Assembly (NCBI GenBank): GCA_012845835.1
Contig: JABAKD010000029.1
Coordinates: forward strand, 11,990,524-12,054,523
Direction: 5' to 3'
Origin: Undaria pinnatifida
Lineage: Eukaryota; Sar; Phaeophyceae; Laminariales; Alariaceae
Length of the DNA stretch: 64,000 nucleotides
Below are positions 4,601 through 42,060 of this stretch, one piece after another. Numbering within the stretch: the stretch's first letter is position 1; the number at the start of each line of letters is the position of its first letter. The notes under the pieces were generated by a model, which was not told the origin of the DNA, did no database searches, and was given only the letters and a program-made list of their open reading frames with translations. A program made the translations under genes and the position numbers.

Positions 4601-7600
4601 GGTGGGGGGGGAGCGCGCTGCCGACGACGCCATCTGCTAAGGCATTTTTCCGTTGGGCGGTGTTTTTGGCCGAATATTGACCAACTACCCACCTACCCAC
4701 CCAAATTGAGCCATATATCAACTACGAACTCCACGCTGTGCTGCTTGGTCTTGCGTCGGGCGCAGGAGCGCGAGCGCGCGAGTTAACCAAGCCGCCCCCT
4801 CACCTAAGCTTGGCCGTGTATACTTCCGCGATCTGCTGCTGCGACCAAAACGGCGGGTGGTGCACTGCTCTCGCCGCGATGCCACCCACGCCTCTGAGAT
4901 AGCCGGGGCGCATGAGCCTGAGCATACCCAGAGGCACCTCACAAGACCGTACCAGTCTCTTCCTCCACGTCCGTTGCACCCTCGTCGACGCAAGCCGCTT
5001 GCGGATTCTCTCGTACGTCTGGAAACGCGGGTCCACATGAAGATCGAAGAAAAGTGTCTCGATTGCACGAAACTCAGCTTCCGTTTTTTGTACAACAGTA
5101 GTTCCTTTCCCGTAAGGCAGCTCGTACCCCGGTCCCGACTCGTGCCTCACGTTTCGGATGTGGTATAGAATTGCCAGCAGCCTCCGGTACGCTGCGAGGG
5201 GCCTCGTGCCATCCATGGACGTTGCTTGGGGCGTGGGCGACTGTTCTGACCCGTCGCCCTCGCCAGCAGTGCTGTCGCCCGCTTCGGCCGGGTCCTCCGG
5301 CGTTTCGGCTGGGAGGAGTGACTCGGGCGGGTCTCGGTTCGCCGTAGAAGCCTACGATTACACGTTTTCGTAGCAATAAAACAGCATTTGGTGCGTTGCA
5401 GAGTCGGCATTTTGGAGAGGGCGGGGTGTTTCTTCTTTAATTCCGCAAGCTACGTGCTCTCGTTTGTCCTGGGGTCGGGAGCTTTTTTGGAGGGAGGGAT
5501 TTTATCTGTTTGAAGCTTTTGCCTATATAGGCGTTTGTGTTCCGACGAGACTTTGAGTGAAATCGCAATCATTAACGCTGCGGCGAGAAAGGTGTAGAAC
5601 ACGCGAGGCAGACGTATCACGCAGCTTGAAAAATGTTGTTATATACCACTCGATCGGAGGAGCTTACGGCTGACATAACTGAAAATGATTCTGCTAAAAA
5701 AATATTGTTGTTTTGTTCGTTGCGGGGTCGGCATACTAGAGAGGACGTGATATCTCTTCTTTAAGCCTTGTCTATATAGACACTTATTTCCCGGCCAACT
5801 TTAGTACGAAACTTGACTAAATTTAGGGTAGGGGAGCATAACCCATGGCAGGAGTGATCGGAGAGGGTGCCATTGCCGGCATTTGGTACTCGCACAAGTT
5901 TCAGTACTGGTTACATGGCACTATTCGTACTCGCTAGAACCAACATGCAGCTCTAGGGAAGATCGACTACGTGATATGCTTGCTTTGGCAGCGAGCAAGC
6001 CCGTACAGTAGCTCAAGAAGCGCCAAAAATAAAAATCCACGCCATGGAGAGCAACGCACCGCGCAAAAGGAGGTGATGGAGGGCTAGATCGTGCATACAA
6101 TCGAAATCACACCGATTTCGCTCTCACGAAACATTTCCGCGCCGGTCATGGACGAGTGCCAAACGATCACGAGATTCCGCCAACGGCAACAAAAACAGAT
6201 AAAACGGGGTACGAAAAATAGATAAACGTTGAACAGATACAAACATAACCATGTGTATGCAAAACTGCATGCTGGGTTCCGTTCCGAACCAAGGATTATT
6301 TCCGAAAGGCTCTCACATCGAAAATCTCTCTCTCCACGGCCCGCTGGCACTTCACCAGCTGCTTCACTGCGCTCTCGGGCATGCGGTCTTTCACCGCCTC
6401 CACCGCCGGCTTCATGAGGGAGTAGTGGCGATGCACAAGCGCGCCCAAGTTGCTCCTCGTTTCCACGTCCATCCCCTCCCCGAGGTCCGCGCGGCTTGGC
6501 ATGTGCACGGGCAGCTGCAGGGCGTTGCTGAAGAACTGCCAACGGTCGGCCAGCTTCAAAAACACCTGGTAATAGGCATATAATTAATTACGTCCTGGTG
6601 TATATCATCGCTAGAAAATTGGCTATTTTTAAGATGTCTTTGCCGAGGATTTAGCGTGGACCATCACACCTAACGCCTAGTGTCCATTATGCCAGCAATC
6701 ATATCTTTCAAAATTGCGCGCTTTTTAAGAGCACAAAAAAGGAGCATAAGTGAGAGTCACATCGAGAAAGGGGCTTAACAGCGGGAAAACATTATTAAAG
6801 ATACACCATAAACTTGAGCTATGCAGTCAGCCGTGTATCTCTAATGAAAGCACCCTCTGGGCGCCATCTGCCTGTTAATCCTGGACCTCGGATGTTCCCA
6901 AGGGTCGCAGTCGTCCCTTTAGTCAGCACCGCCTCAAACAGGGGGAATCACGGCGTTTCTTGGTCCGTGGGGATGCGTACCATGACCTTCAGGTGTGCAG
7001 TTTCGGAAACTCCAACGAGAAAGAAAAAAGAGACACAAGAACGCCGGGGGATTTGAACCCAGATTGTGCTTTCAATAGAGACACACCGTAACCACTGAGC
7101 TCTGCAGTTAGCGCTGACTGCATAGTTCAGTGGCTACGGCATATATCTCTAACAAACATAGTAGTTTTCTTTTTCATATCCTCCGGCGGATGGGGAAAAA
7201 TAAACTCACCCCACTCCCAGGTATTTTTATACACGTCGCGTGTCAATTTAAGTCGACTGTATTTGCAATCCAGCGCCACCATGAAGTAGTTTTTTTTTTG
7301 TGGACCCCCTTTCCAGCAAAAAAGCACCAAAAACTAGAAAAAACATAGCAGAATGCATATAAGCCCACCTGGTAGTCCACTTCGCCGTTAGTCTCCTCAT
7401 GCGCGTCACGGAACACCGCGACGGCGTCCGATGTTGTCACTTCCGGCCACAGGGTTCGCGCGATCGCCATAAACTGGGGCAGGTCAACAGTAGCCTTGCT
7501 CTCGTTGAGGAGGCTGTCGTACACCGTCTCAGCGGCCGCGAGAGCACTTTGGTCCACCCTCCCGTCACCGTAGATAGGGGTGCTGTCCGTCAGAACGCCT

Positions 7601-12184: not shown

Positions 12185-15100
12185 ATGATGCAATTAGCTC
12201 TCGGTGCTATCGTCTTCTCTCCCTTTTTCACGCAAGCGCTACTCCCGCATGTGGCACCCCCTCGCTCCATGGCTCGCCATACAGCAGTAGGGCTGACGAT
12301 GGACTGTCAGCACGACCTTGAGGTATGTAGACAGCAGGCAGATGGTAGTACCGCCCGGTAGATAACCTACAGAGAGGACAAACACCTTTTTAGACCCATG
12401 GAGCTTATTGCTCGGTGTAAGTACGATACGCACGTTGTAGCTGCACTAGCTACAAGTCTAGAGCAACTGCTTTACTCTTCGTTAGCTCTGGTAGGGAACC
12501 CTGCAACCATGACGAGCATGATAAGTTACCATACCCTGATTCACCGTACGTAGTCGTACATGCGCACCCTTTTTTCGATGGCACTGACGACTGACACGGT
12601 GCAAGGTACAGATCAGCGCTAACATTACAGCTGTACCAGGTACTCGGTATACTCCTGTACTCAGTATTCTCCTGTACCAGATACCAGATAGTGGTGCGCG
12701 AGAACCTGGTAGCATTTTGTTTGCGTACGCTATTCGAACGAAACAGATATCACTTCATGACCTAGATCTTGCAGATGCATATCCCTCGCTTCTGGTTTAC
12801 GTTATGTGCGTAATCTGCACGATCTACAAGGCTGCGCTCGCGGGCGGCTACTACGCTCCTCGCGGCCCCCGCTCAAGGAAGCAGATAGAACAAAGTGTAA
12901 AATAGACGGAAGACACAGCAGGCCTAACAGCGTGGCCGCGCGGATCTTGGAGGCTGGTTTTTCCGCTCTCGCAATAGCCGACGGCTATGTGTTGGTCCGC
13001 AGACCGTTTCTGGCTTGTTCTGGACAGGGTTGAAGTCAGGGTGAGGGTTATCAGGGTGAGGGTTATAGGGTAAGGGTTAGCGGTTTTGGGGTTAGGGATC
13101 GGGTTGGGTTTACGCCCGTACCTTGATCCCGCCAGGAAGTGCTTCCTACTGTAGCTCGCAACCGCGAACAGCCTAGCGCCCCAAAGATCCGCGCCACCAG
13201 ATCGATAGGCGAGCCCGGAGGACGCTCGGCTCATGGTTTGCGCCCCCTTGCACGAGTTGTAAAGAAAGCTGTCCGTTTTTCCGACAGCGGGGAGGGAGCG
13301 TGCAACCGCTAAGCGACGCGTCTATGGGAATATCTCGACGATACCGGTATCTTCCAAAAGCTGCTACTCCGTCGTGGTGTGTGCCCCCCTTACTTTCGAC
13401 CAAATCGCCTCTGTTTTTTTTCGTCCCAGGAGGTGTTTTATCTTAAAAAATCTTTTCAAGTACGCCAGCTGTGAGCTCGATAAATTTAGGATCGATACTC
13501 ATCCTTGCAAGCTGCGTGATATACCGACCGCTCGTTTTTACGGATGTAGTATTTACAGGTATCGAATATGCGGTAAATAACTCGTCGGCGACTTACTAGT
13601 AATGTAGCTGCTAATGGTTACTATCTGTTACTATTTAATACTATTGTAGTTACTGTTATAGTATAGTCAGAGAAGTCGCAGCCCTACCCTTGCGCTACGA
13701 GGGTCGATGTTCATCTTTGCAACCTGCGTGATACACCGGTCGCCCGTTTTGGCAGGTGTAGTATCCTTCCAATAGAAGTATATGACTCGTGTTATGCGGT
13801 AAATAATTCGTTCGCGAACATACTATTATTGTAGTCGCTGTTGGTTACTACTGTACTAGTTACTACTATTAACAGCAACTCGTAGTGTAGTCAGGTAACT
13901 GAAACCCCTACCCTTGCGCCTTGCGACTCACATATACCTCCCCGGTTGGCAGTGCGTAACGCGAGAAGAGACCCGCGGGGAGGTGGTTCGTCGTGTTGCG
14001 GCGGCGTGTGCGGTGGGCGGGTCGGCGTGGACTTCTGCCGCCCTGGGGGCCTTGGCCAAGTCGCCCGTCATGAAGCTTCCGGATGGTGAGAGGGCAACTT
14101 TTGATATTTATAGTAGCAACAAACTAGCGAGGGATACTGTTATGTTCTTTGTTTTGCTTTATTTTTCATGAGGTGTCCTTCCACTCCAGAGTTATTGGCG
14201 CCTCTCCTGCGACCATCGAAAATGTTGATAGTAGGCGTTGAGGCAACGCGAGTACACCAACAACAGCAACCGAGCAAGAATCTCAATCGAGAACAGAGTT
14301 CGATATTATATTATTTTTTGAATTCAAGTTCGATACGATATCGTACCGCCGATACACGTCATGAACGTTAACGAGAATCGACTTCGATACGACATTGTAC
14401 CGATACAAATGATGGCTATCGAACGATAGCCAAGTTTGACGCGATGCCGATACACATAATGGGTGTTCGATACGATGTTTTCCGATAAACACGATACTTA
14501 TACCGATAATTGTGATGAATATCGAACGACAATCGAGTTCGAAACGTTACCATATTGATAAAGGGATGGATGTCGAGCATAATTGACTTCGATACGAAAC
14601 ATTGCCCGATACCTGTGATGGGTATCGAACGAGTATCGATTTCGATGCGGTGCCGATACGCGGAGAGCCAAATGATATACTCGTACCTATAATATTTCGA
14701 TCTTCGCTACGTCGATTTTTTTTCGTTCAGTGCAGCAGCAGCGTACGAACAAATTGCGGGGATGCCAGGAGATGAAAGGATTTATTGCGTTCGATACGTT
14801 TTCGAGTAGCTAGCTGGCCGAGTCAAGTACCCTGCTCTCTCGACCCGCCCCCACATCCCACGCTTGAGACGTGGTGACACTACTGTGACTCTATTTATAG
14901 TGGTGACACTGCCGTGACTCTGCGTTCCAGAAGTATTTACAGCTGGGTCCGGCTTCGGGGAAATGGTTGGTAGGCCACACTACGGTTACAGCTGTGCTTT
15001 TGTGCATATCGACCACAAAAAACGGCGACAGCAGTCACCAGCCAACGACCAGCCCAGAATAGAAGCGTCCCCGCCAAAAGCAAACGCCTCCTGCTACCGT

Positions 15101-25859: not shown

Positions 25860-26390
25860 CCGGTACAGTAGCGGAGCCCTTACATATGCCGGCCGGTAAA
25901 TACCAGCACTAAAAAACGCCTACCGGCACTACTCCGGATATTGACACTACTGGTTGCTCCCATCTGTGCCCAACAGGCACTATAACGCGGGCAACCGGCA
26001 CTATAGAGGATCCACTACTGTGTGCCAAGCGATTAGACAGGCAGTATAGCGGGCAACCAGCACTATAGAGGGATCATTTCTGTGTGCCAAGCGATTTGAC
26101 AGGCACTATAGCGGGCAACCGGCACTACTCAATCCGAACTATAGAGGATCCACTACTGTGTGCCAAGCGATTAAAGAGGAAGTATAGCGGGCAACCAGCA
26201 CTGTAGAGGGACCATTTCTGTGTCAAGCGATTTGACGGGCACTATAGCGGGCCACCAGCACTACTCAACCGGCACTAGAGAGGGACCACTTCTGTTTGCC
26301 AAGCGATTTCACAGGTACTATAGTGGGCAACCAGCACTACTCAACCGGCACTATAGAGGAACCACTACCGTATCCCTACCGTAGCACACG
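25860..26390. mobile_element. MITE-like family D, expanded copy
   Basis: Array of inverted and direct GGCACTATAG, GGGCAACCGGCACT and CTATAGAGGGACCAC words. Related elements at 38640-38910 and 56175-56465 are bounded by inverted ends (CAGTAGTGGTCCCTCTATAG at one side, complement at the other). Here an internal unit of about 110 bp is amplified about four times. Target duplications are not clear. Confidence 0.55.
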
Positions 26391-26880: not shown

Positions 26881-26984
26881 GACGTGTGAGAAAGTACGTA
26901 CTCGTAATGAATACCATACGTATATCATACTCGCCAGCAGGGCGTGCCTGGCGAAAACAAGAGAACTAAGAGAACCAACCAGTG

Positions 26985-27159
26985 GTTTGTGACGTCGACC
27001 ACCCCCCCCTCCCCTCTCCCCCATGTCCCAGGCTGCCCCTCGCGGCGCCGGCTGGGTCGCCCTCTATCATGTCGGCTGGCCTGAGGTACTCTGGGGATAA
27101 ACAAGCTGACAACCGTCCTGCACGTCTTTTTTTGCCGGACCGTCCTGCAGTTAGGAACA
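26985..27159 (-). pseudogene. Partial copy of the 3' part of PurF exon 10
   Basis: Lies 170 bp downstream of the matching part of the real exon. The minus-strand reading keeps DMIEGDPAG and GHGGEGRGG against DMIEGDPAD and GRGGEGMVV of the working exon. It is past the PurF stop codon and is a tandem duplication remnant. Confidence 0.7.
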
Positions 27160-30100
27160 TTATATCACGTCGACCACCATCCCCTCCCCCCCACGCCCTA
27201 CGCTGCCCCCCGTGGCGTCGGCCGGATCGCCCTCTATCATGTCGGTGGGCATCAGGTACTCTCCAGTGAACAAGCTGTTCTCGAAGCCGTCGGGAAAGAC
27301 TCCGGGCTGTAGCTCACTCACGCAATCTTCGAGGTCTTTTAAATCCTGGAAGGCGACAGGTACAAGATGGCACAAACGCAAAAAAAAACACGAAATTATG
27401 AAAATTTGAAAAAAGAAAAAGAAAAGCAAGAACGAAAAGGTTGAAACAATTAAAAAAACAAAATATTCATTTGACTATTGCCGTTCAGAATCGGGGAGCA
27501 CTCTGGGCTGTAGCTCGCTCACGCAGTCTTCGAGGTCTTCTAAATCCTGGAAAGCGAAAGGTGTAATGATGTGGAAGGCGACGAAGGCACCATCGACGGA
27601 ACAGAAACAAATGCTTAAAAAACATGCTTAAAAAAAGCTTTAATAGAAGCGCGTCATAGTTTTAAACTGCAACCACGCTGTTATCGCAACCGTTGGGACA
27701 GACTCCGAGATGTAGCTCGCTCACATATTCTTCGAGGTTTTTGAATCCTGGAAGGCGACAGATACAAGGTGGAAGGAGAAGCAGGTATCGTCGATACGTG
27801 TGAAAAATACAAAAAACAAAACATAATGATACGCCAAAGAACGGTGAAACAGCGAAAGAAAGGGTTGGGAATTAATACTTGGTATTCATTTTAATGGTTA
27901 CGAATGTACACTCTAGCATTGCGAATAAAAAAACGCGTCCACACTGGCCTGGAAAACGACTACATCAGCGCCGGTAGCCCCCGCGACCTCGATATATCGC
28001 TGTGCGATACGATACATCGGAGCTCAAAGTTGTGATGCATGTATCGAGAGAGATACGATATCCGACAACAGCCGCGAGAATGGCCTGGAAAACGACCCCA
28101 TCACGGCCGATAGCCTCCGCGACCTCGATGTGCGATACGATATATAGAAGCTCAAAAGTGTGATTCATGTATCGAAATGCGATACGATATCCAACATAGC
28201 CTCGAGAGTGGCCTGGAAAACGACCCCATCACTGCCGATAGCCTCCGCGATCTCGATTTGCGATACGACATATCGAAGCTCAAAATTGTGATACATGTAT
28301 CGAAATGCGATACGATACACGTATCGAAATGCGATACGATACATGTATCGAAGTGCGATACGGTATCCAACATAGCCCCGAGCGTGGCCTGGAAAACGAC
28401 CCCATCGGCGCGGATAGCCTCCGCATTCTCGTCTTCTTCGTGACCGTGGTTCCTAGGTCCGATAGCTTTCTATCTGTTATGAAGGTACGATAATACACCT
28501 TTCGAGTTTATTTTTCGATTTTCACCTACTCTTTACTGCAACACTAGAAAATTTAAACGGCCTTGCGAATCGAAACACGCCCCTAGACTGACCTGGAAAA
28601 CCACCTCATCCGCCCCGATAGCCTCCGCAATCTCATCCTCTTCCAGTCCGTGGGCCAGCAGCTCGGACTGTCGCGGTAGGTCGATGCCGTAGCAGTTAGG
28701 ATGTCTCACCTCAACAACGGAAGGGAAAAAACAAAACAGCGGAACGGTGTGGCGAGAATAAAAAAACATAGCTGAAATCGGTGCGAGGGCTGCTTACGGC
28801 GTGACACAGCTTCGGCAAAAAAAAGAACACGTTGGACTACAGATCATCTGTCCCCACTTGACGATCTAAATCTTTCAGAGACGATCTGTACTGTCTTAGC
28901 TCATGTTACCGGGTGGGAGGCGTACGATCTGCATGACCTACCACACATTTCCTCGGTTGGATATGTTTCTCTATATGTACAGATCCTGCACAACATCTCG
29001 TAACAGCAGATACAGGATCTACTGTAGATGATCTATATGACCTATATGATTTATATGACCTATATGATCTAAATGATCTATACGATCTATATGATATGTA
29101 TGATCTATATGGTCTATATGATCTACGTGATCTGTATTATCTCGATCGTCGTCTGTCTGAGATGTGAAATAGTTGGAACGCGTACATACTATGCTTGACT
29201 GTAAACCCCAACCCCGAACCTATCCCCGCAGCTTAGGGGAAGGAAGGGCAGCAGAGCGTGGAGGAGGGAAAGCGGCATGCATCCAAAGCACGGCCTGTAC
29301 CGACCTCTCGTCACTAAATACGGCAGTTGACGATCCCTAGCTTTGGCCTTTCAAGGCCTCGCACTACTTTCAGTTTGGGGAGTCCCTTGACGGTTGCCCG
29401 TCAAGGGGCGAGAGCACTGTCAAATACAGCGAAACAAGCTATTGTCTGTGTAGGTAATGTCTTGACGGCTATCCTTGAAGGATGTACTTGACGGCTGTCC
29501 TTGACAGCAGTCCGTAAGGGGGTAAGAGTCTCGTCAACTGACATCTTTGACTAATACCACGTAGCAGTAAATATGTATCGGTTGAAAGCCTATCTTTGCC
29601 CCATCTCGCCCTCGTTAGACTTAACGTATATACGACTTTTACTGTGGGAAATTCCTTGACGGGTGTCCTTGACAGGTGTCCTTGACGGTTGTCTTGACGT
29701 ATGTCCGTCAATGGACAATAATACCTTCAAACGACGTTTTTTCTCCTTACCGGCGGCGAAACGGTTGACGGCCTACCACTACCCGTAAAGGCCTCGTTAC
29801 GTTTTAGTGTGGGAAGGTCCTTGACGGCCGGCCGTCAAGGGGAAATAGTACCGTCAACGGGCGAAACCGTCGTCACTGTAGACTAAATATAGTATTTTTA
29901 GGGTAGGAAGTTCCTTGACGGCTTGCCTTGACGTCCGCTCTTGACGGATGTCCGCTAAGGGGCAAACGTGGCGTCAACCACCTTCAAGTATACGCAGCAG
30001 GCGTTCCTTGCCGGCGGCGAGGCCGAGCAGAAGTAGCCCTCGCGAGCGCCGGCCTCCTTGACAATGCGCACTATTTCCCTAGACGTCGTGCCGGGGACGA

Positions 30101-31546
30101 TGGAACCACCTACCAACAGAACCAACTATGAATAGATAACTCTCCCCCTCCCCCCACCTCCCCCCTCCCCGAAGGGGAAAGACTACCGTGAACCAACCTC
30201 AACCATCCTCATGAATAGATAACTCTTTGCCCCCCCCCCCAACCCCCCCTTTCCCCCCCCTCGTCCCCATCACGGGGAAATACTACCGTCGACCAATTTC
30301 AACTATCCTTGCTCTCCCTACCTGCGACGAGGCCGAGCAGAAGTACACCTTACAAGCGCCGGCGTCCTTGACAATGCGCACAATCGCTCTGGACGTCGTG
30401 CCGCGGACAATGGAATCGTCTACCAACAGAAGCAACTATGAATAGAAAACTCTCCGTCCCCTCCCCCCCGCCCTTCCCTTCTCCCCGTCAAGGGGAAAGG
30501 CTGCCATCAGACCTAGGCCATGCTATCGTTCATCCGGTACATATAGACGCGTGCCACGATATAGGTATATACCCCTTTCTGGCTTTTTTTCTGTGGTTCT
30601 TCGCTTTAGGAGCTTAAGACATGTCCTTCTTCACCGAAAAACTGACTTCGAGAAAAAAAAAAAAAAAACTGCATTGATCCCGGATGAAAAACATCCCATG
30701 GCCTAGGTACACGACGAGAATCATGATAAAAAATGACCTATTATTTATTTATTTTCCGACGATTTTGGGTCAAGCAAGTTCCGCCATTCAGAAACAAGAA
30801 AAGACAAAAAAGGGTATACCTCTATTTTTCTTTTTTTTTCATCCTCCGGCGGATGGGGAAAAATCAAGCTCAAGCTCACCACACTTCCACGTACTTTCAT
30901 ACGTGTCGTGTGTCGATTTAACTCAGTTGTTTTCGCAACCCAGCGCTAGCTGGCGCGTCCTTCGGATCCCACTATAGCGATCGGCGTGAGCTGTCCCTAT
31001 CAGCGGTCTTCGTTACAACCCCGGCAGCGCAAGCTGCCGTTGTTTATGGATGCGTGAACAATGGCAGAACCTCTATCGTAGCACGCGTCTATAGCTGGTA
31101 GCAGTTTTGCTTTTCTCCAAAGTCAGTTTTCGCGTCAGAAAGACATTAAAGAGATCCTCAAGTGGTTATGAGCCTCAGAACGGCAAATAACAAGTAGGAA
31201 TGGTGATGCTGCCCCTACCGTACATAGCGTGCGCCGTTCAACCATTCTACCAATTTGAACCATCCTTGCTCTCCTTACCGGCGGCGAGGCCGAGCAGAAG
31301 TAAACCTTGCGAGCGCCCGCCTCCTTGACGATGCGCACGATCTCTCTAGATGTGGTGCCGCGGACGATGGAGTCGTCTACCAGCAGGACCGACCGCCCCT
31401 TCAGGACGCAGGACACGGCCGACAGCTTCTTCCGCACGTTCTGCCTCCGGAAGGCCTGTCCGGGCATGATAAACGTGCGCCCCACATACCTGTATCGATG
31501 TCCCAAGCACAGTGCCAGATGTATTATTGCGGTTGTGGTAGTAGTG

Positions 31547-31592
<46 letters not shown>

Positions 31593-34500
31593 CAGTAGCA
31601 GTAGCAGCAGTAGCAGCAGTAGTAGCAGTAGCAGTAATAAATGAAATATATAAAATTTATAAAACAAAATGAAAGTTAGACCTTCAGTATAAAAAATGAG
31701 TGAAAAATGTAGTGGTAGCAGTAGCAGTAGCAGTAGCAGTAGCAGTAGCAGTGGTTGTTGTGGTTGTGGTTGAACACGCGTGCCATGATACGATGGGGGT
31801 GTTGACAGCACTTTACGCGCCAAAACATTAGATCACCGCGCGAAAAAAATCGTGCTGCATTCAGCAACACCATGAGCGAAACACAGATTGTCCAATTGCC
31901 CTCGTGCAGGCCCTGGATTGAGAACATTGCCCCATGTTATATTGATATTTTTCTATAATAAAATGTTAAAACCATAGGGATCTAGAGGATTTCTTTTTTT
32001 TGCTCATCCCTTCTACTAGCTTCGTGCTTTTCCTTTCTCCTTCTCACCCCCTAGACGTACCTCAGATCCGGGGTCACCAAGCAGGCTCTTCTGCTCACCC
32101 CTCCCCACTATGGCACGTGCCTTCATTTTGTATCGCGGGAAGGTTCCGGCTGTTTCTTCCCTTGTCCATTAAACCAAACTGTTTAAAGAAATTTGATATC
32201 ATTGTTAACCGTCAAGTGTGAGCGCGCAAGCAACACTAAGCGAGAAAGAGACTGCCGGCTAAAAACAGTCACTCTTGCACTCGCCTGTTTTTCGTGAGGC
32301 CTTCTTCAAAAGGCAAGCCCAAGGACGCGGCACAATGCATCGCGGCTATCCGGCTCGTCTCGGGCACGGGGACTACCACATCTACCTGTCAACAGGGAAA
32401 GGGAGAACGGGACACGACACGACAAGGAAGGAGCTTCAAGCATATCTTACGTTTCATCTTGCATCTCCAGAACCTTGACGGCCTCAACCGCTGTCTGCAT
32501 CCCCCCGCCTCCCCACCCGCCCCATCTTCTCTCGAATACACCCCCCCCCCCCCTCCCTCTTTCTCCACCCCCTCTCCCCCGCCCCTCTTTCCCCTTCCCC
32601 TACCCCCCCCGCCCCCCCCCTCCACACCGACAAAAAATCAAGCAATTCAAAGCTGTCATCCACTATGAAAGAAGTACAAGGTGTCCGAGTCCGAGTCGCA
32701 AATGGTTCTTAGTAGGATGCAGCCCAACTTTTTTCATGCGACTCGTCGAACACCTCACGGCGCTCCGCTTGATGCAAGCAATGCCTTCCTGCTCGGTGAA
32801 AACCTTACGTACGCCGACCCGGCAGTATAGGGATGCGAGGGTCTATGGCGTTAAGACTACGGCCGCGAATGAAAATGAAGACAAATCCCGCCCTTCCCTC
32901 CGCCGCCGCCCCCCCCCCCCCCTCCTCCCCCCTGCCCCCTCTTCACCCACCTACCCTGCCCCCCCCCCAGCCACTTCCCCTTTGCATATTGCTCCCGCGT
33001 GGCTGCGGCGAAACAACAAAACGTGCACGCCTGCACTCGGGATTTTCTTATACCCCCTCCCCCCCTTGCCTGGCGAAACAGGACGGGGGTAAGATAAGCA
33101 AACAGTTTCTATGTAATATATGAAATAAGCGTAATGAGTGCCCCTATGTTGGAGGCGTCTCTATTAGGAGTAGGAACGGTGCTCCATCTCAAAAGGTATG
33201 CGTGATCAATGGTCAAACGACTGAGGTGAGCAACAAATGAGTACGCCGCCCCCCCCGCCCCCCCCTCGCCTGGCTCTGCCTGGTCGGTGGAAACCCGACA
33301 TGCTCTGTCCCCGCATTTTAGGTCTGTAACACATGGTCATACCACTACGGTCAAGCATGAATATTGAGTACACCCCCCCGCGCCTGGCAGACACATAAAA
33401 ATCGAGTGCATGTCCAGAAACACGGATGTTAGGCCTTGCCTCTCCCACGGGAACCTCTCTAGCAATCTTGCCCGCCAGCCGCAGGCCCATCGCCACTCGC
33501 GCCGCGTACACCTAGTCAAAACAGACAACGAACGCAAAAGAAAAAGGTCAGCCGTTTTGGACCTTCAGAGGGGCAAAAAAAAAGCGACGAATAAAACTGA
33601 CGATGTTGCAGCATCCCTCACACGAGAGCAACCCGGGCCCTGCTAGATTACTGCGGAGGTCCATTGTTTGGGACAAAATCGCCCACCAACAAAAGTTGAA
33701 AGCATCATCACCTTTCTGGCGAAGTCTCCTACGCTGCGACTGTGATCGACAGAGGCTCTGTGTCGCCGGTCAAGACCAGCCAACAAAACAAACTTGATTC
33801 AAGCGCTGTTAAACAACGCCGGGCGCTTTTTTCTCTTTTTGCCCCCTTTTTGGCTTGATAGTTCATCCTCCTGACAGCGGATCTCTGTGATACGATATAG
33901 GTGTCGACGATTTTCCAGTCGAACTCCAATGCAGGTACCTGCAAGACACTCGCACAGCTTGCACCGCCGTTTGCTGCATGCTCACGCCATGGCCAGAACG
34001 CGCTTATAGTTTGTTCTATCGCTGTACATGGGCCTCAAAAGGGTCCAGACGAAGGTAGGAAAAACCACATACGTAAAAACCCCAGCTGTCACTAGAAACT
34101 CCGCCAGCGGCATCCATGGAATTTGTGATTGTGGTCAACCTGTGTGGCTGGTAGATCGGCGGTAGAAACAGCCATATCGAAAGGGGTCCCGATTTGTTTT
34201 GGTGTGGTGAAAATTGAAAACTCGCATTTCCGCTCCAAATATATCCTTCATGAGAATATACGAACCCCGTACCAAGCGTGATCGGAACACTTTACACAGC
34301 TTGCAGATACGAGTTTCAACAACATCCCCGATCTCACAGCCGTGGTGTATTGTTAATAATAACTATTGAAATTTACTAATATTCATTAGGTAAATAAAAT
34401 ATTACACTAGCAATCTGGCGGGCGGCGGTAGCAACAACGCTATGAGTTTTTTCGTTTTCGTTTTCGTTTTCGTTTCAGCTTTGCTTTTGTAACTTGATCA

Positions 34501-37500
34501 TAGCATTCTCACTGAAAAAGCGACACGCGCGATCTGCTCAATCAAGAGTCTACTATAGAATGAGCGCGCTGCAGTAGCAGTGGTAGTACTTCGAAGTCGT
34601 AGTAGTAGCAGTATTGGTAGTAGTAGCGGTAGTAGTAGTAGTAGTAGTAGTAGGTTATCCTGGAATGGTACCAGAGTTGGTTCTCGGGATCCCGCGTGGG
34701 TCGGAGTTTCAAGTTTAGAAAAACAATAAATCAAAGGAATCAACTGCTGAGAGCGCCTCGCAGCGTACATAGGGCACAATTCGATAGGAGTCGACGAGGG
34801 ATGAAATAGCCGGAATCCTCCCGCGATGAACATGAAGGCAAGTGCCGTAGTGGGGAGGGGGGAATAGAGTCTGCTTTGTGAGCCTGCTGTATCGATCTGA
34901 CGTTACATCTAGAGCAGGGAGAAGGAGAAATAAAAAGTGCGAAGGTAATAGAAGGGCTCAGCAAAAACAAAACAATGCGATCGCAAAAACAAGGGTAAGA
35001 AGTTATCCGATTCAAGGCACATGCGATGGGACCAAAACAGCGACGTGCGCAAGTGCACCAAGCGTCTGCAGCAGGACGAGCTCGCATCAGCATGATTATT
35101 GCCATATGCTGATGCGCGCGTGGCCTTACGGCTCCTTACAGTGCGACGAAGACCGCATCCCTATACCTCCCGGCAGCGCGACCTGCTCCCTGCGGCCGAT
35201 GCTGCTGTCGCCACTTGCTGTTTTTCAATACTATTTTGCCGCCCAAGCCACAATGGGCTGCTTTATGGTATTAGTAGTACGGTGTTTGCGAGATATCAAC
35301 TTTCGTTGGGTAGGAGGATGGGTAGGAAAAAATCTAGTAAACAGAGACGTGCGTCGACACGATATAACGCCCTTACAATTGGAAACCCGTTTCGGTGACA
35401 AAGTTACTTGAAATTACCGACTAGTTAGTAGTCGCGACACCCTGCCGACTCACAGCTATACTAATTATAGAAATAGTAGTATCTAAACTGTCCAAGGTAC
35501 AATTCAAGGCCAACTCAACCTACGAAAAAGCAAGCGAAAAAATACAAGCAGATTTAGAAACACGTTTTCCTGCACATTTTTCTTATCTTCTCAAATAATT
35601 TGTGTTCTTGGTTTTTTTTTTGGGAGGGGGGGGGGGGGGGGTTCATGATGTTAGTCGGCTTGAATACTATCAATATTGTTTCAATGTTTCACTAACCCAA
35701 CAGAAGCAGAAACTCGCAAACGCCGTATTATTTAGTGCTGCAGTACGGAGATCCATTGTTGACAACTTGAAAACACCCCCGAAAAAGGAAAGCATCGCCA
35801 TTTCGGGCGAGCTCTTCTACGCTACGACTGTGCTCGATTAGGCTCTGTATGCCCGGTAAGACTAGCTAACAAAATAACCTCGGGTCAAGCGCTATTAAAC
35901 AAGGCGGGTGTGCTTTTTAGCGCCCTATTCATGTCTAGCATTCCACCCTGCTAACAGTCAGTGGATCTCCGCACTACTGCAGTACCTTGCCCATATTCCC
36001 GATGTTCTGCATATCACCGTGTATACTGGTAGCCTACGATACACAGCCCCGAGCCGAGAGGTATCGGCAGACACTCACCGGAACGCCGTCAATGATGCTG
36101 TCCGGGCGCGCCATGTAAACATACTCGAACAGGCAAGGCTTAAACCTCGTCAAGCTCCGCCCAGCCACTGCCCTTCCTCCCCCTCCCCCCCTCCCGTCTC
36201 CACCCTCCTCCTCCTCTTGCTGCTGCTGTCGCTCCTCCTCCTCCTCCTCCTCCTCTTGCAGCTGCTGCTGAGGGGAACAAATCCTACTCGACACAGACCC
36301 CGTACCAGCATCCAAAAACACGGCTTCCCCGGCCCGAACATCCCTCTTCAAAGAAAATCCCAACCCTGTCAACGCTGACGATTCCGACGCCACCCCCAAA
36401 TCCATCTTTCCTGAGCCCCCTCCCCTCCCAGTCAGGACCCCCCCTCCCCCCGAAGCACCCCCTTCTCCTCCCGAGGCCGCGGCGATTATGCCACCGACGC
36501 CGACCCCCCCTCCCCCCGGGCGTGAGCCGAGACATAAGGGGCGGATGCCGTGGGGGTCGCGGAAGGACAATATGCCGTGACCGTTGATGAGAATCGTTAC
36601 CGCGTATCCGCCTCGGCACCGGGCCATTACCGCCTGTTTTTAGTGGGTAGGGTAAGGTAGAGTAGGGTAAGGTAGGGTAGGGTAGGGTAGGGTAGGGTAG
36701 GGTAGGGTAGGGTAGGGTAGGGTGGGGTGGGGTAGGGTAGGGTGGGGTGGGGTAGGGTAGGTCAATATATAGTAGGGTAAGGGTAGGGTAGGGTAGGGTA
36801 GGGTAGGGTAGGGTAGGGAAGGGTAGGGTAGGGTAGGGTAGGGTAGGGTAGGGTAGGGTACTGTAGGGTAAGGTAGGGTACTGTAGGGTAAGGTAGGGTA
36901 GGGTAAGGTAGGGTAGGGTAAGGTAGGGTAAAATAGTTAGGGTAGGGTTGGGTTGAGGTGGGTTGGGTTGGGTTGGGTTGGGTTGGGGTGGGTCGGGTCG
37001 GGTTGGGGTGGGGTGGGGTGGGGTGGGGTCGGGGGGGGGGGGGGGGGGGGGGGGGGGGATGGGGTGGGGTGGGGTGGGGTGGGGTGGGGTGGGGTGGGGT
37101 GGGGTGGGGTGGGGTGGGGTGGGGTGGGGTGGGGTGGGGCAGGGTAGGGTGCTGATAGTGGGTGGGGTGGGGTGGGGTGGGGTGGGGCAGGGTAGGGTGC
37201 TGATAGTGGGTGGGGTGGGGTGGGGTGGGGTGGGGTGGGGTGGGGTAGGGTGGGGTGGGGTGGGGTGTGGTGGGGTGGGGTGGGGTGGGGCAGGGTAGGG
37301 TGCTGATAGTATTCAAGAAATACGCTGTGCAGTAGGCGTGGGGCAGGGTGTTGCGGATTATAGCAGGTGGGGTGGGGTGGGGTTGTGGCGGAGCGGGGGG
37401 AGCGATTTTTTGTGGTCAAGTCTTCCCTCTGAAGACACAAAAGGACCAGATCAATCAAATCAATCTATTTACTCGTCCATCGACTAGTCGTTTCTACCTC

Positions 37501-38111
37501 CAATCCTTTCGCCCCCTCCGCTTGCCCGGAAAAAATGCAATCAACAATAACAATAACAAAAACAACAGTAACAGCAACAACAACAACAACAACAACGGCA
37601 ACAACAACAACACCCACATCACCACCACCACCACCACCACCACCACCAACAACGGGCCTACCTGTACGACTTCGAAGAGTAGATCGGGCGTTACGCCTGA
37701 TTCAATGGGCGGCCTTCTCGCCGCTAGCTCCATCCCGAAAATCTCCGATATTAATTCCGTGTCCGAGTCGGTGATGAGATGCCTAGTCGCCGACAGCTGC
37801 CACGGGAAACATGCAGTAATAAACGCACAAATGTTAATGAAGCAAGCAAAAGAACAGCCGCCGAGCCGCCGACATAAAGTGCATCAAGAATTAATACAGG
37901 TTTCGCAGACGATTGCACGCAACCAAAACATCGTCGGATGCCGACACAGCAAGAATTCCTCAGGAATTAATAATCCAGGATGCCGTACAACAGTGGTCCC
38001 TGCACAGTGCCGGTGGAGCAGTGCCGGCTGCCCACATACTATGACCATTGGGTAGATGATAACAGCAACGGTGGCAACGGCGACAAGAAGAAGAACAACA
38101 GCAGCAACCGC

Positions 38112-38167
<56 letters not shown>

Positions 38168-40767
38168 CCACAACAACATGGGTATCATCATAACCACACA
38201 TACCTGGTCTCTAAGAAGCTGCCCGTTGCTGATGTGCCCGTTGTGCGCCACGCAAAAACCCACGGGGACGTTATTCCGAAACGGCTGTCAAGCGGGAAAT
38301 GACCGCAACAAAAGGGCACGAACGTGTGAAAGGATAAAGCCGAACCAACTGTCACTAGAAACCCAAGCATGGGATATTATGTGCGATGCACTGCTGTGAT
38401 AGTGCTGTGATGCCAATGTTCCGAAACCGCTATTCATTATTGTACCAGGGCAAACGCACCTCACACTAATTCCAAGTAATTTTATCCGAAAACGTGGGTG
38501 CAGTGACAAGGGAGTCAAGGTCAAACATAGGTCAAGGACACCCTTAACCCCTTTAGAGCCCCAAAATCCCTCCTTATACTAACTTCAAGTAAATTTGTGA
38601 AAAAAAAGGGTTTCCAGAAGCGAAGGCGTTCAGGAAAACGATTACAGTAGTGGTCCCTCTATAGCGCCGGTATGTGCCAGCCGGATACACCGGCACTATA
38701 GCGGCAACCGGCGCTACCCTGCATACTGAATCTATCAACATTCGTTGTTCTCATCTGTGCCACACGATTTCACAGGCACTTTAGCGGGCAACCGGCACTA
38801 CTCAACCGGCACCATAGAGGGACCAATACTGTGCGCCAAGGGGTGTAACATGCACTATAGCGGGCAACCGGCACTGCTCAAGCGGCACTACAGAGGGACC
38901 ATTGCCGTGTAGAGATAAACGGAAACCCACGCATGGGGTATGACGCGCGATGTACGCTATAGGTATCATAGCGTGGTTCCGAAACGGCTGTCGAGGGGCC
39001 GAAAAAGGCCATGGATGCCCGGAAAGAAAACGCCGAAGCGATGCAGGAAACCCAATCCACTGCCGTGGGGTGTGATGTGCGATACGCGGGAGCAAAAAAA
39101 ACAAAATCTCACCCACACTTTTCTTTTAAGGAGCCAGACAGAGGGAGTGAGGGTTACTGAAACCAAGTAAAAAAAGTTGTAGAAAGAAAGCAATTTTCTC
39201 TATTTACACAAAAATCACAACGCTCCGATTTTTTTCCCCCCGTTTTAACCTTTCTAGGAGTGTGGCTCCGTTTTCTCATTGTTTGTGTGCTCCCCTGGGG
39301 CTGCGGTATATGTGTAGTATGATACCGTCGATCCGAACCGGCGCTCGAGAAGCAACAACAAAAGTCACAGGTACGCAGAAGAAAAACGTTGGGGCATAAC
39401 CGGAAACACAAGCGGATAGCATAACGTACGGATATACCATAAAAAACGTTGTCCCGAAACGGCTGTCAAGGGGCGTGAAAAGGGCCACGGACGCCCAAAG
39501 GAAAACGCTGAGCGGTGACTGGAAACCCCTCCTTCCCTCTGTTTCATAAAATAAGAAGACCTTTTGACTTTTATGGTGGATAGGGTTCGGCGTTCCCACT
39601 GCCCGTCGATGTAGTCGTCAACTTTAGCCAACTCACGCTCTCGCTCCATCAGCGACCAAATAAGATGGTTTCATCACCATAAATCGCAAAAATCGGAAAA
39701 TCGGAAAATCGGGTTGTCGAGAACCTCGCCTGCGCTTCTTCGACGCTGTTGCAGCCGCTCGTGGGGTATCGCACATGCCCCACCCCGTAGGCTCCGCACA
39801 GTGTCGACATGCTCTCCACGCCAAAAACGTCGCGCGCCTGTTTTGTTGGTTGGTGGAGACGATCGGGATGTCAGACATCGATAGTAGTAGCAGTAGAAGA
39901 GTACCAGTTGTAGTAGTAGTGTTAGTAGTGGAATTAGTAGTGGCGGTGGTAGTAGTAGTATAGTAGTGCCGGTCGCCCCGGTGGCGTATCAGGTTACTCT
40001 CGAGCCTGGTATAGGCCAGTTTCGTGAGTTCGAGCCCCCCCGAGTGCATACTGGTATAAATTCGTAGGGACTTCCTTTGTGCACAAATTGGCTTGCGGAA
40101 AGCGCGAGAGCGTGAGTTAGCAACACTCGATGAAAATTCGACGAGAAGTGGGATTGCCGAACCCTATGCGCGATAAAAAAATTGAGGGCAAGAAGCGGGG
40201 GGGGGGAGGGACGACACCTGCAACCACGGCTTGTCCGGAAGCTCGAAAGCAGTAGTGTGTGTTGTCTTCACATAAAACCGTTTCTTTCAACCCAACGACA
40301 TCAGTATACCCAGTGTCCGTGCTGATTCTTCATCCCCGAGAGACACAAGCTATTATTATGTGGTCAAATACTGTGCAACAGAGTAAACCAAACATTCGCA
40401 ATTCGTGAAAAAAAGAAACAAAGTAGTATTAGTACCAACAACAGCAGTAGCTGTGTAGTAATAGTGAGACAACAGTAGCAGTAGTAGCAGCAGTAGTAGC
40501 AGTAAAAGTAGGACCAGATAGAGTAGTAATATCATAGGTTATACCAACCAACCCCAGGTGAATGCTACACTGACACGTAAGAGAGGCAACAAATAGTGGC
40601 CTTCTTACCAGCCCCTTGTCCTTCCGCAGGAACATCTTCCGCCCATCCGACGTCGCAATTCCCGCCGCATCTTGACCTCGATGCTGCAGGATCGTAAGCC
40701 CGTCGTATAGCTCGGGGGACACCTGAGCGTCCCGGTCGGCCAGCAGGATGCCGATCACACCGCACAT
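27160..40767 (-). CDS. purF: Amidophosphoribosyltransferase (glutamine PRPP amidotransferase), 10 exons, about 574 aa
   Basis: Makes 5-phosphoribosylamine from PRPP and glutamine, the first committed step of purine synthesis. Exons: 40767-40609, 39837-39730, 38284-38204, 37796-37662, 36633-36079, 33511-33440, 32385-32285, 31489-31279, 28709-28593, 27345-27160 (TAA). All phases agree. The protein starts [11 protein letters not shown], so Cys2 is the Ntn glutaminase nucleophile with no propeptide, as in the E. coli and yeast non-Fe-S enzymes. Glutaminase residues visible: Arg76 (GHVRYPTSG), Asn104-Gly105 (AHNGH), Asp128 (TDSDTE). The PRPP loop [13 protein letters not shown] is at 438-450, preceded by [14 protein letters not shown]. 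The C-terminus has [17 protein letters not shown] and [12 protein letters not shown]. coli PurF has 505 residues; the excess here is a Gly-rich and Glu/Gln-rich insert in exon 5. Introns 2, 6 and 7 need GC donors. An in-frame upstream extension from 41007 was rejected because the nucleophile must be N-terminal. Confidence 0.95.
27490..27546 (-). pseudogene. Second copy of the 5' edge of PurF exon 10 with acceptor
   Basis: Acceptor TTTCCAG followed by codons for [14 protein letters not shown], against [14 protein letters not shown] in the working exon that starts at 27345. The copy starts at 27546, 201 bp upstream in transcription. Its frame continues differently, so it is a decoy or alternative terminal exon. 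Confidence 0.75.
27685..27747 (-). pseudogene. Third copy of the 5' edge of PurF exon 10 with acceptor
   Basis: Acceptor CTTCCAG then GATTCAAAAACCTCGAAG, starting at 27747, again 201 bp from the previous copy. More decayed. Confidence 0.7.
27948..28440 (-). pseudogene. Four tandem copies of the 3' edge of PurF exon 9
   Basis: Copies end at 28388, 28212, 28084 and 27948 (real exon end 28593). Each keeps codons like [11 protein letters not shown] before the junction. The real donor after CAG is GTCAGT; the copies have GCCACG, GCCACT, GCCATT and GCCAGT, so all four carry GC in place of GT. GATACGATA-type tandem repeats fill the gaps. Confidence 0.75.
28850..29145. repeat. GATCTATATGA-type tandem repeat
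   Basis: About ten degenerate 10-11-mers (GATCTATAT, GACCTATAT) at 29030-29140, with related GATCATCT words around it. In PurF intron 8. A similar GATCAT-rich patch lies at 18315-18360 in the FKBP gene. Confidence 0.6.
29390..29985. repeat. Array of CCTTGACGG / CCGTCAAGG inverted words
   Basis: Five or more hairpin-forming units (for example CCTTGACGGTTGCCCGTCAA) spaced about 80-190 bp. The array directly borders exon-8 copy 1, and CCTTGACGATGCGCAC-type sequence also occurs in the exon itself. Confidence 0.6.
30012..30130 (-). pseudogene. Copy 1 of the 3' half of PurF exon 8
   Basis: The minus strand reads [19 protein letters not shown] and further residues to CSASPP. It lacks the PRPP-loop DD pair and the Arg of the real exon ([10 protein letters not shown]). 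The end carries a GC donor (CCG, then GCAAGG), where the real exon has GTAAGG. Confidence 0.8.
30322..30440 (-). pseudogene. Copy 2 of the 3' half of PurF exon 8
   Basis: The minus strand reads [20 protein letters not shown] then [14 protein letters not shown], ending with donor CAG, GTAGGG. The PRPP-loop residues are intact, so this is the best-preserved copy. Both copies follow the same CTATTCATAG-like acceptor context, so exonisation is conceivable. Confidence 0.8.
30820..30985 (-). mobile_element. Poly-A retroposon family C, copy 2
   Basis: In PurF intron 8. Includes the A-rich tail, CCCATCCGCCGGAGGATG and the GCTAGCTGGCGC end shared with the 55360 copy. Confidence 0.6.
31535..31770. repeat. 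GTA/GCA trinucleotide microsatellite
   Basis: Two tracts, 31535-31640 and 31713-31755, at the start of PurF intron 7 just after the acceptor side of exon 8. Poly-Val and poly-Leu frames here are artefacts. Confidence 0.8.
31990..32170 (+). repeat. Dispersed repeat F, copy 2
   Basis: Second copy of the family seen at 790-970, inside PurF intron 7. Core GATCCGGGGTCACCAAGCAG is conserved. Confidence 0.6.
32735..33375 (+). mobile_element. Two element A copies with one element B copy between them
   Basis: Element A at 32735-32870 and 33265-33375. Element B (GATCAATGGTCAAACGAC, GAGCAACAAATGAGTACGCC) at 33160-33250. All lie in PurF intron 6, separated by C-rich tracts. The same A and B modules are found apart elsewhere, which suggests a composite or nested arrangement. 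Confidence 0.5.
33645..33895. mobile_element. MITE-like family E, copy 1
   Basis: About 230 bp element also at 35745-35965 and 53540-53790. Shared words: GCGAGCTCT or GCGAAGTCT, CTACGCTACGACTGTG, GAGGCTCTG, TCAAGCGCT and GGATCTC. The ends are roughly inverted (GGAGATCCATTG against CAGTGGATCTCC in copy 2). Confidence 0.5.
34785..34985 (-). repeat. Dispersed repeat F, copy 3 (inverted)
   Basis: Reverse-complement, more decayed copy of the 790-970 and 31990-32170 family, inside PurF intron 5. Confidence 0.5.
35745..35965. mobile_element. MITE-like family E, copy 2
   Basis: Best-kept inverted ends: CGGAGATCCATTG at the left and CAGTGGATCTCCG at the right. In PurF intron 5. Confidence 0.55.
36638..37395. 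repeat. G-rich pentamer array (GGGTA, GGGTT, GGGGT) with G28 run
   Basis: About 750 bp in PurF intron 4. Blocks change from GGGTA (36640-36930) to GGGTT, then GGGGT, with an uninterrupted run of 28 G at 37031-37058. G is on the PurF template strand, so the transcript is CCCCA-rich. Strong quadruplex potential. Pro/Thr and Gly/Val frames over it are artefacts. Confidence 0.9.
37545..37650. repeat. AAC / ACC trinucleotide tract
   Basis: Microsatellite directly beyond the donor of PurF exon 4 (37662). Confidence 0.85.
38085..38180. repeat. AAC trinucleotide tract
   Basis: Microsatellite just beyond the donor of PurF exon 3 (38204). Exons 3, 4, 6, 8 and others each have a simple-repeat tract within about 150 bp of a splice site. 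Confidence 0.85.
38405..39480 (-). pseudogene. Tandem copies of the 5' edge of PurF exon 3
   Basis: The real exon begins (minus strand) after TTGACAG with CCGTTTCGGAAT at 38284. Copies occur at about 38979 (CGACAGCCGTTTCGGAACCA) and 39454 (TGACAGCCGTTTCGGGACAA), with a decayed one near 38421. Upstream intron sequence (GGGCATCC and similar) is shared. All lie upstream of the real exon within intron 2, and each keeps an AG acceptor. Confidence 0.7.
38640..38910. mobile_element. MITE-like family D, compact copy with inverted ends
   Basis: Starts TACAGTAGTGGTCCCTCTAT and ends with the complement-like CAGAGGGACCATTGCCGTG, with GGCACTATAGCGG and CCGGCACTACTCAACCGGC inside. In PurF intron 2, between two copies of the exon-3 edge. 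Confidence 0.6.
40255..40420 (+). repeat. Dispersed repeat J, uninterrupted copy
   Basis: GTGTGTGTTGTCTTC, ACCCAACGACATCAGTATAC and GTCCGTGCTGATTCTTCA match the sequences on both sides of the TRIM element at 46624-47009, so this copy represents the empty site of that insertion. Confidence 0.65.
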
Positions 40768-40819
40768 CTTCGGTCCGCCCCCATTCCTTCTTCGGGCCTC
40801 TTGCTGCCGCTTTTGCTGT

Positions 40820-41470
40820 CGATACGGCCGCTGTGGCACGGCTGCTACCCAGCGGCTTGAGAATTCCCGCGGGGTCGAAAAGGGGGAGCTGGTGGTTTGA
40901 CGGGAAGGAAGTGGACTCCACCTGTCCGTCGAGATTAGATGCACAGCAGCGGGACGGTTGCAGTGGTGCGGGACACCTAACGTTGTCAAAGGTACTGGTA
41001 TTAACAATAAGAAGCGGAGATGCGTCGGCCCAGCTTGGGGTTGTTACCTTGCAAAGGGTCGCGTTCTACACTAAACACAAGAGAATAGCGTCGGAAAATC
41101 ATCCTTTTACAGTCGTTCTGTAAGCAGAGATGCCGGTCCGGCTTGGAGTTTGTCACTTTGCAAAGGGTGCGTTCTGTACTAACCACAAGATAAAAGCGCC
41201 GGGAATTCATTTTTCTAGTAACCGCCCTGTGGTCTGCACGGTCGCTGTGGCACTGCTGTTACCCAACGACTTCAGCACTAACTTGGAGCTGAAAAAGAGG
41301 AGGAAGTCCACTCCACCTGTCCGTTGAGATCGGTTATGCAGCAGTAAAGGCATATGCAGCAAATACTAGGTAGCAAAAAAACAAGGGTGCTGGCCCAGCC
41401 TGGAGTTCTTCCACTGGGAAAGGGCGTGTTCCACACAAGCTTCAAGCTAATAGCGTCGGCGTTTCTTATT
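40820..41470. repeat. Tandem duplications of the PurF 5' flank
   Basis: The block CCAGCTTGGGGTTGTTACC...CAAAGGGTCGCGTTCTACAC (41028-41095) recurs at 41130-41195 and 41395-41460. CGGCCGCTGTGGCACGGCTG with GTGGACTCCACCTGTCCGTC (40825-40940) recurs at 41240-41330. The 5' UTR or promoter of PurF is therefore partly duplicated or triplicated. Confidence 0.65.
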
Positions 41471-41724
41471 TCTTAGAACCGCGTCGGGATTTCTTGCTGG
41501 GATTTCGTATTACGCCTGGCTTCCTTCGAGCTCGTGCTTTTACTTGATGTTCTGTACCGACGTATTGCACGAGTACATAATCTGCAGTACTAGATTACTA
41601 TTGCAAAGTAGTATGGGTTGGGGGGTGCTCTGAGCGCTAAAAACCAGTACACGAGCGTCTGGTGCCGCGGTGCGTTTTGCCAAGAGCTGGGGCACTCCGT
41701 GGGCGGAAATTGTGCGAACAGACT

Positions 41725-41945: not shown

Positions 41946-42060
41946 TTTTTTTTTTTTTTTTTTTTATTCTCCGGCGGGTGGGGCAAACAAAAAAAAAAAA
42001 CTCAAGCTCACCACACTTCCGCGTATTTTCATACACGTCGCGTGTCGATTACTTCTGTAC
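41940..42060 (-). mobile_element. Poly-A retroposon family C, copy 3
   Basis: Long T run at 41945-41965 (the A tail on the minus strand), then TTCTCCGGCGGGTGGGG and a conserved TTTTCATACACGTCGCGTG. It sits inside an ACC-rich microsatellite. Confidence 0.6.

Follow-up and report, generated by a model that had tools for sequence, protein, structure and literature searches.

The 64,000-nucleotide stretch of the Undaria pinnatifida genome considered here (the window, C36:11990524-12054523, G+C 50.0%) carries on its minus strand the amidophosphoribosyltransferase gene, PurF, in which the edges of several exons recur as partial copies. An initial annotation of the window had reported these copies, and we can confirm that they are real: there are 29 local direct-repeat pairs in 26900-41500 (E≤1e-3, simple repeats masked), as compared to none in any of 50 dinucleotide shuffles. 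The same annotation had interpreted them as a special capture of splice junctions in one particular gene. Neither part of this interpretation is borne out. Exon edges are hit about as often as chance predicts, and other genes show a pattern like that of PurF. With a probability that we estimate to ca 85%, the partial copies are dead by-products of the random short tandem duplications that are frequent in this genome.

The PurF gene and its partial exon copies

The gene model was built from the reading frame and the splice sites. It has ten coding exons, separated by introns of 407-2569 bp, and the encoded protein can be aligned with amidophosphoribosyltransferases of solved structure over residues 1-199, 239-281 and 326-545 of 574 (best 8w7d, E=3.5e-129). 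What remains unaligned between these parts is low-complexity sequence of exon 5, and in the best hit the final 29 residues have no match either. The score against 1ecb, which we take to be the E. coli enzyme, is 433 bits, far above the 237 bits against 6lbp, a chloroplastic plant enzyme. It is important to note that the frame of the enzyme is complete without any of the partial exon copies. The conserved frame requires GC donors in three of the nine introns, namely intron 2 (39729, CAG/GCGAGG), intron 6 (33439, GAG/GCAAGG) and intron 7 (32284, CAG/GCGAGT), which is a high share for a single gene.

To find the copies, every exon plus 150 bp of flank was searched against the gene at E≤0.01. Extra copies were returned for exons 3, 8, 9 and 10, and for exon 1 in its 5′ flank only; none were returned for exons 2, 4, 5, 6 and 7. 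The features are as follows, all on the minus strand.

27160..40767, minus: PurF gene, 10 coding exons, 574 aa (frame, splice sites, protein alignment)
38204..38284, minus: exon 3, working (gene model)
31279..31489, minus: exon 8, working (gene model)
28593..28709, minus: exon 9, working (gene model)
27160..27345, minus: exon 10, working, holds the stop (gene model)
38972..39083, minus: exon 3 5′-edge copy with intron sequence, within intron 2 (copy search)
39446..39528, minus: second exon 3 5′-edge copy with intron sequence (copy search)
30289..30436, minus: copy of exon 8 3′ half, donor and 33 aligned intron bp; donor CAG/GTAGGG; open 114-nt stretch (copy search, alignment)
30005..30126, minus: second exon 8 3′-half copy; donor CCG/GCAAGG; open 114-nt stretch (copy search, alignment)
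29742..29759, minus: identical 18-bp scrap from the exon 8 donor region; donor GT (copy search, alignment)
27916..28449, minus: near-periodic array of four exon 9 3′-edge copies; spacing of donors 204, 176, 128 and 136 bp; GC in place of GT in all four copied donors (copy search, alignment)
27491..27571, minus: copy of exon 10 5′ edge, acceptor AG retained, 201 bp from exon 10 (copy search)
27674..27861, minus: second exon 10 5′-edge copy, with 111 aligned positions of intron; frame broken by a one-base gap (copy search, alignment)
26992..27108, minus: exon 10 coding end copied into the 3′ flank; no splice junction crossed (copy search)
41012..41459, minus: three 5′-flank repeats, the first two ca 110 bp apart (alignment)

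Most of the copy matches are 76-91% identical. The acceptor edge of exon 3 (38268-38295) matches 39446-39473 (89%) and 38977-38998 (91%), and the donor edge of exon 8 matches 30289-30429 (86%, E=1e-43) and 30005-30126 (84%), in addition to the scrap. For the donor edge of exon 9 there are four matches, at 28375-28449, 28199-28254, 28067-28126 and 27916-27990 (76-80%). The acceptor edge of exon 10 matches 27674-27772 (84%) and 27491-27562 (88%), and its coding end at 27167-27277 matches 26992-27108 (79%). The copy numbers originally given for exons 3, 8, 9 and 10 are thus right if the working exon is included (three for exon 3), as is the duplication of the 5′ flank, where 41012-41109 aligns with 41122-41217 (78/95), 41027-41094 with 41392-41459 (52/67) and 40824-40949 with 41238-41344 (81/107). 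The statement that each copy crosses one splice junction is correct for four of the five families; the copy of the exon 10 coding end crosses none.

Placement of the repeats in PurF and in other genes

As a null model, the set of repeats was slid along the gene and the hits on exon ends or splice sites were counted. At E≤1e-3, a threshold that misses exon 3, the repeats cross 3 of the 18 splice sites of PurF (3.3 expected) and contain four exon ends (4.0 expected), that is, three splice edges and the coding end of exon 10. For four chaperonin genes the corresponding number of exon ends is 7 (7.0 expected), giving 11 for the five genes together (11.0 expected). The looser threshold of E≤0.01, which admits exon 3, gives 5 against 4.1 in PurF and 12 against 11.3 in the five genes. 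We have also considered repeats lying wholly within an exon. With a margin of 15 bp there are 0 (3.6 expected, P=0.02), which suggests a depletion of repeats within exons. No repeat pair has both copies inside one exon, a count for which no expectation was computed.

The chaperonin genes come from a search with PF00118 that gave ten clusters with 57 exon matches, of which four clusters with 27 matches were analysed. A local partial copy (E≤1e-3, overlap of at least 12 bp) is present at 7 of the 27 exon matches, in three of the four genes; one of the seven depends on a marginal 30-bp match (E=0.001). In one case, the end of a Cpn60_TCP1 chaperonin exon (L034 5870-5957) matches seven downstream places at 6109-6645 (joined L034+L035 coordinates); among those of the seven that were inspected by eye, three contain stops. 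All five phosphoribosyltransferase exon matches elsewhere were examined together with flanks of 1.5 kb, and a local partial copy is present at two of them. One is a phosphoribosyltransferase-family exon, PRPP (phosphoribosyl pyrophosphate)-synthetase-like by eye, with partial copies upstream of the working exon at L002 994-1058, 1297-1343 and 1501-1566, and the other is crossed at its end by a 77-bp tandem duplication (L003 1379-1452 and 1456-1529, 90.5%). Within the window itself, Pfam gave no family above cut-off for ten other open frames, so that no second in-window gene served as a control.

Local direct repeats are also common irrespective of genes. In 20 stretches of 10 kb, taken from six contigs at round coordinates (2,680 N in one stretch), they cover 0-32.7%, with a mean of 13.6%, and the pairs are 217 direct against 29 inverted, with identities from 65% to 98%. 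In PurF, the coverage of 31500-41499 is 9.0%.

Some other repeats of the locus can be mentioned here. Exon 2 lies between the arms of a 75-bp inverted repeat (39569-39644 and 40104-40178, 77.6%), and a long GGGTA/GGGGT array at 36645-37301 lies mostly within intron 4. A minisatellite with GGGCAACCGGCACTA is common to 25973-26371, downstream of PurF, and 38702-38909, in intron 2; this motif has 11 matches in the window at up to 2 mismatches (0.11 expected). An Rfam scan at gathering thresholds and a tRNA scan of the window gave no matches.

Origin and fate of the copies

The local repeats are predominantly direct, with a direct to inverted ratio of 25:4 in the gene span of PurF and 59:5 in the window. 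In 14 of 14 copied edges, counted by hand in the PurF, chaperonin and phosphoribosyltransferase genes, the copies are located beyond the edge that they repeat, outside the exon (or exon match), which is the placement that tandem duplication requires; one of these edges (gene D 12755-12795) ends 13 bp within the match. Two of the families form near-periodic arrays. The 5′-edge copies of exon 10 are spaced by 201 and 202 bp, and copy 1 resembles copy 3 over 188 bp, that is, most of the unit. The exon 9 array consists of 128-136-bp units, one of which is lengthened by a 24-bp repeat. Together, these two arrays account for nearly all of the local direct repeats in intron 9, which cover 819 of its 1247 bp. 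Unlike in these arrays, the intervals of the exon 8 and exon 3 families are unequal. The exon 8 copies are 310 bp apart, with the nearer one 957 bp from the exon, and the larger interval holds a segment (30825-30918) that is similar to 41950-42050 and that we read as a later insertion. For exon 3 the intervals measure 703 and 475 bp, with gaps in the alignments.

The copies do not stop at the splice site. Over 11 exon-copy pairs, the exonic parts are 83% identical to the working exon (576/691) and the intronic parts 75% (316/424; one pair, the exon 10 coding end, has no intronic positions). Similarly, copies 1 and 3 of exon 10 are 68% identical over 111 intronic positions and 82% over 74 exonic ones. 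The "exon edge" is thus the best-preserved part of a larger duplication extending into the intron, and this difference in identity is in part why the edges draw notice. As intron sequence is included, the copies derive from DNA, and an origin from mRNA was ruled out. A search of the genome (511,146,479 bases in 68 contigs) with the exon 8 unit alone, which skips very common words, finds this unit in two places, itself and exon 8. The local duplication mechanism proposed in the initial annotation is supported by the orientation, the near-periodic exon 9 and exon 10 arrays, the position of the copies outside the copied edge, and the confinement of the exon 8 unit to the locus.

In the mechanism that we propose, the genome would produce short head-to-tail tandem duplications, of tens to several hundred bp, regardless of gene structure. 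A duplication straddling an exon edge would bring a partial exon, a splice site and some intron into the adjoining intron, while the working splice site would remain joined to the rest of the exon, so that the protein would be unharmed. An existing direct repeat could then gain copies by slippage or unequal exchange, which we infer to be the mutational step, and near-periodic arrays such as the four exon 9 copies and the 201-bp units of exon 10 would result. Afterwards, the copies would decay as intron sequence does. Selection might in addition remove duplications that alter the protein, a step for which the scarcity of repeats within exons is a slight indication.

The pattern of substitutions agrees with this course of events. 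Between the working exon and the nearest copy, the differences are distributed 14:10:31 over the codon positions (four families; exon 3 is too short). The excess at third positions is significant against one third (P=0.0004) and consistent with the half expected for a constrained exon and a free copy (P=0.42). Between copies the differences are 20:25:23, even as in non-coding DNA. The changes in the copies thus fit a constrained exon and free copies, which look neutral, and no coding constraint on the copies is seen.

Several points weigh against this assignment. The placement counts cover five genes, four of them through profile matches that only approximate the exon ends, and the copy-to-copy pairs are not independent; for exon 8 alone, their differences are 4:5:9. 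Both exon 8 copies are also open and free of indels over 115 bp, although 9-18 random changes leave this stretch stop-free in 70-82% of simulations. The depletion within exons depends on the margin, being 3 against 4.9 without one (P=0.25), 2 against 4.4 at 5 bp (P=0.14) and 1 against 4.0 at 10 bp (P=0.06), and there are 0 whole exons in one repeat as compared to 1.2 expected (P=0.23), which lends little support to a selection filter. The repeat at the exon 10 coding end has a 58-bp spacer without detected similarity and is not cleanly head to tail. Finally, the 3′ part of PurF (26900-36899), with 25.1% local direct repeats, ranks second of 21 stretches.

Another option is that selection retains the copied junctions for the regulation of PurF splicing, as functional decoys or as alternative exons. 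All four copied acceptors (two of exon 3, two of exon 10) keep the AG, a GT donor is retained in one exon 8 copy, and both exon 8 copies are open and in frame over 114 nt downstream of an acceptor-like stretch, CTATTCATAG. However, GC replaces GT in five of the six full-length donor copies (4/4 of exon 9, 1/2 of exon 8), although these might still be read in a gene with GC donors in three of its introns. Moreover, one exon 10 copy is frameshifted, three copies of the chaperonin exon in gene D contain stops when read by eye, and the copy-to-copy changes are, as stated, even by codon position, all of which makes a function of this kind improbable. We consider it equally unlikely that the splice junctions themselves act as hot spots at which the duplication of exon edges begins, for instance by way of R-loops or of breakage coupled to splicing. 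Serial copies of a single edge, such as those of PurF exon 9 and of the chaperonin exon end with seven matches, would fit such a scenario, but the exon-end hits equal those of random placement at the stricter threshold and are close to them at the looser one, and local direct repeats are frequent in stretches chosen without regard to genes. On the former ground the hot spot was rejected.

An origin from a mobile element or an intron-like transposon (introner) is very improbable. Dispersed repeats are indeed present in the introns of PurF, but each family of copies derives from a different exon and adjoins that exon, the local orientation is mostly direct, and a transposon was ruled out for the exon 8 unit by its confinement to the locus. 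Least credible of all is an assembly artefact with collapsed or mis-joined haplotypes, which the initial annotation had named as an outcome that would undo its case. There is no sign of it beyond the repeats themselves. Most copies are partial and, at 76-91%, too low in identity, on which ground the artefact was rejected, and two families are near-periodic arrays. Haplotypes would differ far less, as the part of the report on the PacBio and Hi-C assembly of this species that we draw on (511,280,173 bases, 114 scaffolds, 50.14% GC) gives an estimated heterozygosity of 0.48% (PMC7058681).

Implications and known systems

A striking pattern in a single gene can thus be what random tandem duplication leaves, and sliding the repeats along the gene provides a simple null for claims of splice-junction capture. 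One can further speculate, although the odds are rather low, that tandem duplication occurs often enough for perhaps a quarter of the conserved exons to be accompanied, in the next intron, by partial copies that include splice signals. Such a supply could be a source for alternative splicing as well as for new exons or introns. The figure is based on the chaperonin (7/27) and phosphoribosyltransferase (2/5) exon matches sampled and on 4 of the 10 PurF exons. In that case, the two open 114-nt copies of exon 8, one of them with a GT donor and with coding sequence for 11 residues of the PRPP-binding loop, would be candidates. If the sampled rate holds genome-wide, this would be a good genome for studying the lengthening of introns by tandem duplication and the raw splice sites that it provides.

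Intronic minisatellites grow by slippage or unequal exchange, and the near-periodic arrays of 128-136 and 201 bp resemble this growth, with the difference that coding sequence and a splice site happen to be part of the unit in PurF. Among the titles surveyed, few in number and from the open-licence literature, none on partial exon-edge copies in brown algae was found. Internal gene duplication, or tandem genomic duplication, is described as a source of introns in the parts of PMC4974935 and PMC3443670 that we draw on, which cite Rogers 1989, Gao and Lynch 2009 and Hellsten 2011. The likeness is that short intragenic tandem duplications carry splice signals along; the PurF copies differ in that they lie in existing introns and lengthen them, with no new intron or exon shown. 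A further case is the RdRp gene of potato, for which the same portion of PMC4974935 (Ma, Lan and Niu 2016) describes a tandem duplication in which an upstream stretch of intron and exon was copied along with its acceptor, and also an 83-bp tandem duplication within an intron. The PurF copies would have arisen in a similar way, but in potato the copy became a spliced new intron and exon, whereas PurF has serial old copies with no known use.

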